A stretch of DNA of 64,000 nucleotides, from contig LFSJ01000227.1 in the NCBI GenBank assembly GCA_001512695.1, positions 1 through 64,000 on the forward strand, read 5' to 3'. The notes below the pieces were generated by a model. That model saw nothing but the letters and a program-made list of their open reading frames with translations, made no database searches and was not told the origin of the DNA. Below are positions 15,645-17,958 of this stretch, one piece after another; within the stretch, counting starts at the first letter, position 1, and every line of letters begins with the position of its first letter. The DNA is from Tepidanaerobacter sp. DTU063. GTDB lineage: Bacteria > Bacillota > Thermosediminibacteria > Thermosediminibacterales > Tepidanaerobacteraceae. Position numbers and translations under genes: made by a program.

Positions 15645-15701
15645 GAATGATGTGGCAAAATTTAATGTCTATTCTCTTTGATACAGAAAGGATGTTGTCC
15701 C

Positions 15702-17246
15702 ATGGAGAAATTTTCTCTTCCTGCAGCGACAGGCGTAGCAGCTATCGGCCTAAAGACGGGCCTAATCTTTCCCAATGACGATATTGCAGCAATTACCGCA
15801 GAAACGGCCAAACCCTTTGTTGAAGATAATGACATCATATGCGTCACCGAAGCGGTAGTGGCTCGCTCCCAAAACCGCTACATATCATGTGAGGAGCTAG
15901 CTGAGGACATTCAAAGGAAGCTAAACCTATCCCCCAAGAGCACCCTGGCAGTCATAAGCCCTATTGCCAGCAGGAATCGCTTCGCTCTGGCTTTAAAAGC
16001 CCTGGCCCTTGCCACAAGAGGCGGCAAGGTCATCCTCCAATTTTCCATCCCCTTTGACGAGGTGGGAAATCAGGTCATGGATGAAGAATTTGCCACAACA
16101 AGGCTTCGGCTAAAGAAGGTATTAAAGAGCCTTCAGGAAGCTAGGGAAAACACCCCGCAGCTTAATGTGCTGATACGGGAAATTATAGCGGCTCTGAAGC
16201 TCCAAGAAATTGGTTACAGTATCTTGAGCATCCGGAAGATCACCGGTAAGGGCATCGCTGACCTGACGGTGAGGACTCCGGAGGGCAAGCTGGCGGTGGC
16301 GGAAGTAACCTTTGAGAATTTGGAGAAGGCTGCCCGGAAGGCCATCGGCATCAAAAAAGATGTGGAAGGCGCCCAGCAAGCCCTGGCCATCACCGTAAAC
16401 TTAGGCCACCACAAGCTGACCATGGTAGATGCTGAGACACTGGAAGAGCCCAAGACTTACGATTTTGGTCAGCAGCTTGACAGCTACTATGACCCGGATG
16501 TGGTCTTCACCAATGAGCTGGAAAACATCAAGTTCTCACATCCCATCACTGGCATGGATTATCGGGACCTGTACATGAAGATGATTGAAGCGGGCAATGC
16601 CGAAGGGGAAGTCATATTTACCAATAATCCCCTCAAAGTTTACGACAGGGGATATATCAACGGTATTTGCATCGGGGCAGTTCATGAGCGGGGGAAATTA
16701 AAGGAACTCTTTGAATCCTTCGGCGCCTTGGTTCCCGTTGCCACCCTTCAAGATATTGGGCCGGAACCATGGGGTATAATCGGCTCCAATGTTTCTGATT
16801 TTGAAAAGGGTGTGCTCAAACTTTTGCCCGGCGATGCGGATGATACGGCCGAAAACATCAAAGCTAAAATCAAGGAACTAAGCGACAAGGATGTAGAGGT
16901 GCTGATTTTCGGCGATGGCGCCTACAAAGACCCGGATACCGGCATATATGAATTGGCAGACCCGTACCCGGCAATAGGGGTCAGCAGCGGCCTCAGAAGA
17001 GCTTCCCTTAGGACGGGCACAAAACTAAAACTACAGCTAGATACCCTGCATAATCAAGGCTATACCCGAGAACAGATAGAACAGATATTGAAAGATAAAC
17101 AGGACAAGGTGACGACTGAAAGCTTAGGCACAACTCCCCGCAGTGTGACCAGCATCGTCGCCACCTTAGCAGATCTCGTGGCTGGCTCTGCCGATGCGGG
17201 AACTCCTATTGTACTGGTTAGAGGATTTAACTATTCCAAGGCATAA
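15702..17246 (+). CDS. Coenzyme F420-0:L-glutamate ligase-like (CofE-like) protein with an inserted domain
   Basis: The protein has 514 residues; ATG 15702 follows AAAGGA, better placed than a TTG eight codons earlier. The N-terminal part (TGLIFPNDDIA, DNDIICVTEAVVARSQNRY, VISPIASRNRF) and the C-terminal part (FTNNPLKVYDRGYINGICIG, GDGAYKDP) resemble F420-0:gamma-glutamyl ligases, which add glutamate to a cofactor. Residues of about 145-255 have no place in the usual fold; they hold IADLTV, then VAEVTF, reminiscent of the D...ExK pattern of nuclease-like folds, by eye only. F420 is unusual in this group, so the true substrate is open. Confidence 0.7.
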   Translation: MEKFSLPAATGVAAIGLKTGLIFPNDDIAAITAETAKPFVEDNDIICVTEAVVARSQNRYISCEELAEDIQRKLNLSPKSTLAVISPIASRNRFALALKALALATRGGKVILQFSIPFDEVGNQVMDEEFATTRLRLKKVLKSLQEARENTPQLNVLIREIIAALKLQEIGYSILSIRKITGKGIADLTVRTPEGKLAVAEVTFENLEKAARKAIGIKKDVEGAQQALAITVNLGHHKLTMVDAETLEEPKTYDFGQQLDSYYDPDVVFTNELENIKFSHPITGMDYRDLYMKMIEAGNAEGEVIFTNNPLKVYDRGYINGICIGAVHERGKLKELFESFGALVPVATLQDIGPEPWGIIGSNVSDFEKGVLKLLPGDADDTAENIKAKIKELSDKDVEVLIFGDGAYKDPDTGIYELADPYPAIGVSSGLRRASLRTGTKLKLQLDTLHNQGYTREQIEQILKDKQDKVTTESLGTTPRSVTSIVATLADLVAGSADAGTPIVLVRGFNYSKA

Positions 17247-17258
17247 GTAACAAGCTGT

Positions 17259-17325
17259 GCAAGCTCATCTCCTGAATAAGCGGACATACAAATGGATATA
17301 ATCTCCAATAAGGAGATGAGTTTGC
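17259..17325 (+). promoter_or_regulatory. Leader hairpin hiding the ribosome binding site of yaaL
   Basis: GCAAGCTCATCTCCT (17259-17273) can pair over its full 15 bases, one of them G-U, with AGGAGATGAGTTTGC (17311-17325), which holds the ribosome binding site and ends at the base before the ATG. Folding would block translation of yaaL and perhaps bofA. TATAAT at 17297 inside the loop, if an active -10, would give a shorter transcript without the left arm and thus free of this block. Confidence 0.65.
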
Positions 17326-17607
17326 ATGAAAAAGCATGATATTTTGCGCTTGTTATCAGAAATATCATCACGACTTTTGTTCGATAACAATGGCGATGAA
17401 AACATCGACACACCTGAAATGAGACTGGCGGAACAAATACGGGAAGCTCAGCAGGAATGGGTTCGGGCCCAAAAGTACTTTCAGTGGGTCTCGGACCCCG
17501 AATTGGTGGACCATGCTATTTTCGCTGAAGAAGCTGCACGGAGGAAGTACATATATCTTTTAAATCAGGCAAAAAATCAAGGTATAAGTACCGATGAGCT
17601 AAAATAA
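17326..17607 (+). CDS. yaaL: DUF2508 / YaaL-family protein
   Basis: The protein has 93 residues and is mainly helical, with AEQIREAQQEWVRAQKYFQWVSDPELVDHAIF as the core, here described only in part: the family marks are the Trp-x-x-Ala and the VSDPELVDHAI region. YaaL is of unknown function but is encoded directly upstream of bofA in Bacillus subtilis and many clostridia, as here (29 bp apart). The ribosome binding site AAGGAGATG lies within a 15-bp hairpin arm. Its recR neighbour found in other genomes is not present. Confidence 0.85.
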   Translation: MKKHDILRLLSEISSRLLFDNNGDENIDTPEMRLAEQIREAQQEWVRAQKYFQWVSDPELVDHAIFAEEAARRKYIYLLNQAKNQGISTDELK

Positions 17608-17636
17608 TATAGTACAAAAAACATGGGGGTGATAGG

Positions 17637-17909
17637 ATGCAGATGGATTATGCTGCCATCCTGGCTTATGCTTTTGGTCTGCTGCTACTTTACGTAGTCG
17701 GCAGGGCTTTAATAGTGCCCCTTAAAATAGTAATTAGGCTGGTCTACAATGCCCTCATAGGTGGAGTCGTATTGCTTCTTTTGAATTTTATAGGCGGCTA
17801 CTTTGGCCTTCACATTGCATTAAACCCGGTAACCGCACTTATTGTTGGCTTTCTTGGTGTTCCCGGCATAATTATGCTGCTAGTTTTACAGTACATACTC
17901 ATGGGTTAA
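17637..17909 (+). CDS. bofA: Pro-sigma-K processing inhibitor BofA
   Basis: The protein has 90 residues with two long hydrophobic segments and the family end NPVTALIVGFLGVPGIIMLL. BofA sits in the outer forespore membrane and holds the SpoIVFB protease inactive until the forespore signal arrives, so delaying sigma-K activation in the mother cell. GGGGGTGAT precedes the ATG. It follows yaaL in one unit and ends in a strong terminator. Its presence supports a spore-forming host. Confidence 0.92.
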   Translation: MQMDYAAILAYAFGLLLLYVVGRALIVPLKIVIRLVYNALIGGVVLLLLNFIGGYFGLHIALNPVTALIVGFLGVPGIIMLLVLQYILMG

Positions 17910-17914
17910 TTATC

Positions 17915-17958
17915 AAAAAATCATCACTTTGTTAGACCGCATAAGTGATGATTTTTTT
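17915..17958 (+). terminator. Terminator of yaaL-bofA
   Basis: AAAAAATCATCACTT pairs with AAGTGATGATTTTTTT around a short loop, ending in a T tract. Confidence 0.9.

Follow-up and report, generated by a model that had tools for sequence, protein, structure and literature searches.

In a 64,000-nucleotide stretch of the Tepidanaerobacter sp. DTU063 genome (contig LFSJ01000227.1, positions 1 to 64,000; hereafter the window), the gene pair yaaL-bofA is preceded by a long hairpin which covers the ribosome-binding site (RBS) of yaaL and carries, between its two arms, an element resembling a promoter of the sporulation sigma factor sigmaF. From its sequence, we consider this arrangement probably a transcript-selective translation lock, shut on read-through mRNA and open on a forespore RNA that would begin at about position 17309. 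The elements concerned are the following.

17257 to 17273, forward strand: left arm of the stem that sequesters the RBS (GTGCAAGCTCATCTCCT); it folds with 17311-17327 and shows paired changes in relatives.
17274 to 17278, forward strand: -35-like GAATA of a sigmaF-type promoter, abutting the left arm; an exact consensus match, with G-n-ATA invariant in the alignment of relatives described below.
17294 to 17302, forward strand: -10-like GGATATAAT of the same promoter, including TATAAT at 17296-17301; G..A.A.T invariant in the same alignment.
17309 to 17310, forward strand: where the short (forespore) transcript is predicted to begin, as deduced from the -10 spacing.
17311 to 17327, forward strand: right arm by folding, reaching from the Shine-Dalgarno (SD) sequence AGGAG (17311-17315) to the first two letters of the start codon (AU of AUG).
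17326 to 17607, forward strand: yaaL, a DUF2508 (YaaL family) gene of 93 amino acids (PF10704, 1.8e-11), to which the hidden RBS belongs.

The hairpin is genuine and conserved. An earlier note, made from the letters of the window, had described a 15-bp stem (17259-17273 with 17311-17325) that pairs up to the base before ATG. These pairs are present, one of them G-U, and the full SD sequence is covered; the stem is in fact longer, since two more pairs, out to 17257 and 17327, bring it to 17 bp and reach into the start codon, whose AU is thereby paired. The arms are 37 nt apart. The minimum free energy of segment 17240-17345 is -32.7 kcal/mol, compared with -18.5 +/- 3.1 for 200 dinucleotide shuffles (z -4.6), none of which reached so low a value. 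We ranked RBS hairpins over the window and over the pattern hits discussed below; the pairing between the yaaL RBS and its upstream sequence (-30.5 kcal/mol) is the strongest among the 66 SD-bearing starts of the window, the runner-up having -23.9. No further copies of the segment were found across the genome, and, being single-copy, it is not a mobile repeat.

Comparison with relatives revealed how the stem has changed. In 19 sequences, aligned by sequence only, 86.5% of the cells pair, and both sides change in 8 of the 13 pairs. Covariation of the stem amounts to 0.371, against 0.192 +/- 0.023 in shuffled alignments; with a slid partner it does not exceed 0.137. RNAalifold recovers the same helix unprompted. 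In relatives from Tepidanaerobacteraceae and Thermosediminibacteraceae, the stem is retained with paired changes (CTCATCTCC/GGAGATGAG, CCCATCACC/GGTGATGGG, CAACCACC/GGTGGTTG and CATCCCCT/AGGGGATG). The earlier note had proposed a search for such compensatory changes and would have taken arms conserved in no relative as a refutation; they are conserved, and the changes are there. Judged by this covariation and by the permutation test given below (0 of 200,000), the stem is maintained by selection on pairing.

An inverted repeat whose arms flank a promoter-like element could also be a DNA operator for some regulator, its folding as RNA being incidental. Of a protein site, however, one would expect a stable sequence, whereas these arms co-vary between lineages (CTCATCTCC, CCCATCACC, CAACCACC, CATCCCCT), following the RBS of each gene. 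Their separation of 37 nt and their shifting position relative to the promoter argue in the same direction, and we regard an operator as very improbable.

The forespore factor sigmaF recognizes the consensus GYATA-N15-GGNNANAHTR. The loop sequence GAATA-N15-GGATATAAT (17274-17302) is an exact match, at the level of sequence, to GHATA-N15-GGNNANAHT. The usual spacing of sigmaF promoters is 15 nt (PMC5942855), and in C. difficile a G upstream of the -10 is a sigmaF feature, as opposed to a downstream A for sigmaG (PMC3789822). The loop element likewise conforms to the sigmaF regulon pattern GNATA-N15-GGNNANANT with its G upstream of the -10. In the 19-sequence alignment, the loop is poorly conserved outside the promoter; the invariant columns include G and ATA, followed by G, A, A and T, spaced as in the sigmaF consensus. 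With initiation placed 7-8 nt beyond the -10 (GGNNANAAT), the start is predicted at about 17309-17310, just 5´ of the SD sequence. RNA beginning at 17308 has no notable structure (z +0.2). As for sigmaE, CATACA at 17285-17290 was considered as a -10 and dropped because it is unconserved in relatives, and a search with simple sigmaE-like patterns came up empty in yaaL, in the gene before it and in the intergenic gap.

The earlier note had located a TATAAT within the loop and proposed a switch by promoter choice. The hexamer is indeed there, exact, at 17296-17301, and could make the loop promoter a vegetative sigmaA one, so that the stem would hide the RBS in a switch between two housekeeping transcripts or in response to some other cue. 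Relatives, however, keep GNATA and GG..A.A.T, not TATAAT, the letters specific to the latter being variable (TAAAAT, TACAAT, CAAAAT, CAGAAT). Moreover, the -35 (TGAATA, at 17 bp spacing) is not TTGACA-like, and the same motif stands 5´ of sigG, a known sigmaF target. A sigmaA promoter is thus unlikely, and the loop element is, from its sequence, better read as a sigmaF-type forespore promoter than as TATAAT alone. Promoter choice itself is well supported as the switch, by a conserved promoter-like element from which a start would lose the left arm in every hairpin-bearing relative, its type being sigmaF (G-N-ATA, N14-16, GGNNANANT) and not vegetative. Nothing points to the RNA-binding factor that had been suggested as an alternative.

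The same design was sought at related DUF2508 loci across Clostridia. The motif lies 14-60 nt 5´ of an SD-bearing start in 47 of 90 loci, the reversed motif in none. For 29 non-redundant motif-bearing loci, the segment that initiation at the promoter would remove was paired with the RBS of the same gene, and partners were then swapped. Own-arm/own-RBS duplexes average -19.0 kcal/mol and permuted ones -12.7 +/- 0.67; a mean as strong as the observed one arose in 0 of 200,000 permutations. The complementary segment precedes the -35 in the family of the window; elsewhere (e.g. L055, L070, L109) it overlaps with the -35/-10 spacer. Whichever the lineage, the predicted start point lies 3´ of it.

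When the 27 exact sigmaF-consensus sites of the genome are ordered by pairing to the downstream RBS, the top two are yaaL-bofA (-29.8) and sigG (-22.8). The sigG gene, 3´ of spoIIGA-sigE, carries GCATA-AAAACCTCTCCCGAT-GGCAAAACT, the spacer of which pairs with GGGGGAGGTTTT at the sigG RBS. Relatives show the same design at sigG with paired changes (pooled test on 8 representatives, 19 of 100,000 permutations). As a promoter yardstick, spoIIR was discarded in favour of sigG, having the exact motif in family f2 and none in f1.

For sigG (spoIIIG) of B. subtilis, one study (PMC5942855, citing its refs 9 and 52) describes a hairpin of 20+ bp that is proposed to keep read-through RNA from being translated and that is unable to form in RNA from the sigmaF-type promoter PsigG. 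The yaaL-bofA stem resembles it in that it would form only with an upstream start and has a sigmaF-type promoter sequence between its arms: here, too, a long stem covers the RBS, transcription is predicted to start 3´ of the left arm (17257-17273), and a forespore-type sequence match stands between the arms. The two differ in the gene concerned and in the gene upstream, and the short sigG mRNA of B. subtilis has a small extra RBS hairpin (PMC5942855), none being evident in the short yaaL RNA. Similarly, in the T4 late genes e, soc and I-TevI, an RBS hairpin occurs only on transcripts initiated upstream, and RNA from the late promoter, without one arm, leaves the RBS free (PMC2988022). These genes share the logic of the lock and use phage late promoters instead of sporulation sigma factors; we do not claim homology. 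The working principle is therefore already known; its proposed use at yaaL-bofA is new, as is the consequence for bofA given below.

Long and stable RBS hairpins are able to act alone, and the short sigG transcript of B. subtilis does carry its small additional one. The yaaL stem could accordingly be a lasting brake, or a conditional switch (a thermosensor or a riboregulator bound by RNA or protein), acting on the main transcript, with the second start irrelevant. This would leave the conserved promoter-like element unexplained, and the remaining loop sequence is poorly conserved. With 17 bp and about -30 kcal/mol, the stem also seems more stable than a simple temperature switch would allow, and an Rfam scan found no family near its gathering score. 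We therefore give such a brake little credence and return to the transcript-selective lock, for which the neighbouring features matter.

15678 to 17246, forward strand: F420-0:gamma-glutamyl ligase-like gene, upstream and co-directional (PF01996, 2e-42).
17637 to 17909, forward strand: bofA, pro-sigmaK processing inhibitor family, 90 amino acids (PF07441, 1.5e-23; TIGR02862 above cut-off).
17916 to 17958, forward strand: likely intrinsic terminator at the end of the yaaL-bofA unit (AAAAATCATCACTT ... AAGTGATGATTTTTTT), from direct reading of the sequence.

The ligase-like gene stops 10 nt 5´ of the stem, a script search found no intrinsic terminator between them, and this gene is the likely source of read-through RNA. 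RNA running in from it would carry both arms and fold into the 17-bp stem, hiding the yaaL RBS and start codon. During sporulation, sigmaF (possibly sigmaG too) would start RNA at about 17309 from the loop promoter, and this forespore RNA, without the left arm, would have its yaaL RBS open. YaaL would then be made mainly in the forespore, together with the message of bofA downstream. The earlier note had spoken of a hidden yaaL-bofA site and of a sporulation inhibitor whose expression would depend on promoter choice or on an RNA-binding factor. The hidden RBS is that of yaaL; bofA begins 29 nt past the yaaL stop with its own SD sequence (GGGGGTGA, about 17625-17632), and since that site is outside the stem, any effect on bofA would be indirect, through co-transcription and polarity.

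Several observations weigh against this interpretation, the position of the bofA RBS among them. The 27 exact sigmaF-consensus sites of the genome compare with 14 for a reversed control, which amounts to chance background. Among the 47 motif-bearing loci, 27 have a duplex of -17 kcal/mol or better; in the other 20, e.g. in the Thermoanaerobacter group, pairing is weak, and the lock is accordingly absent from part of these lineages. Pairing strength has no clear relation to a nearby co-directional upstream gene, as far as crude open reading frame calling can tell. Finally, bofA of B. subtilis is sigmaE-controlled and belongs to the mother cell (PMC517825, PMC3416734).

At L016 / L041, upstream of the DUF2508 start, the locus is preceded by a hairpin that resembles an intrinsic terminator, T run included. 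The RBS stem there is weak, at -11.2 kcal/mol, as would suit a locus with less need of the lock. The near-complete genome G012, of the same genus as G007 and G011, is without sigG over the cut-off, spoIIR and bofA-linked DUF2508 and has kept a diverged BofA (L135), as if it had lost sporulation.

The draft genome (82.8% complete) has a single BofA match, the bofA of the window; a second BofA gene was not found in it. A consequence of the proposed lock is that this only bofA would be transcribed in the forespore, unlike its sigmaE-controlled counterpart in B. subtilis. Simple patterns detect no sigmaE-like site near yaaL-bofA. Forespore expression of bofA would be a real difference, one that can be tested against the view from B. 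subtilis, where BofA is made in the mother cell. The genome also encodes a pro-sigmaK with hydrophobic leader (L314) and, at L309:867-2394 (G000:C92), an M23 peptidase-like membrane protein directly 5´ of a 287-aa M50 protease of SpoIVFB size, plausibly a SpoIVFA-like/SpoIVFB pair. With these, the usual target system of BofA is apparently present.

More tentatively, the sole bofA of many Clostridia may be a forespore (sigmaF) gene, locked elsewhere by a promoter-bearing hairpin, so that BofA and YaaL would act from the forespore side and not from the mother-cell side. On the same tentative footing, yaaL-bofA, sigG and a second DUF2508 gene, the last with a sigmaE-like promoter, may share the lock as a general compartment restriction of translation. 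What was a single-gene curiosity in sigG would become a recurring design, and yaaL-bofA would offer an unusually clean comparative case, in which promoter and RNA stem overlap and co-evolve.

The second DUF2508 paralog of the same order, linked to folC in many genomes, had been intended as a negative control. It turned out to have a conserved RBS-covering hairpin too, in this respect like yaaL-bofA, with a loop that lacks the sigmaF motif. In 7 of 11 paralog loci of family f1, a sigmaE-like -35/-10 pair (CATATT-N13-CATAAAAT) brackets the left arm as its spacer; the pattern was matched neither in the copy of the window's own genome nor in f2. A sigmaE-like promoter around this arm is a lead, not a result. 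Loci of the paralog are L299 (G000:C122:56400-57100), L300, L304, L164-L167, L306 and L308; the second DUF2508 gene of the window's genome sits elsewhere, away from bofA. Downstream of yaaL-bofA itself follows a 2-oxoacid:ferredoxin oxidoreductase operon.

Two further groups of sites came up with the sigmaF pattern. At L256 / L285 (G013:C1:49540-49900), a gene for a membrane-anchored protein of 95-97 aa has GCATA-N15-GGGGCAGATT and an RBS-covering stem of -29.9 kcal/mol; it occurs in G013 and G018 only, and the G018 frame contains a TGA. At L259, L278 and L281 (G013), a GCATAATCGTAAAAGTTCGCGGTTAAAAT-like sequence occurs three times; it is probably a dispersed repeat which matches the sigmaF pattern by chance.
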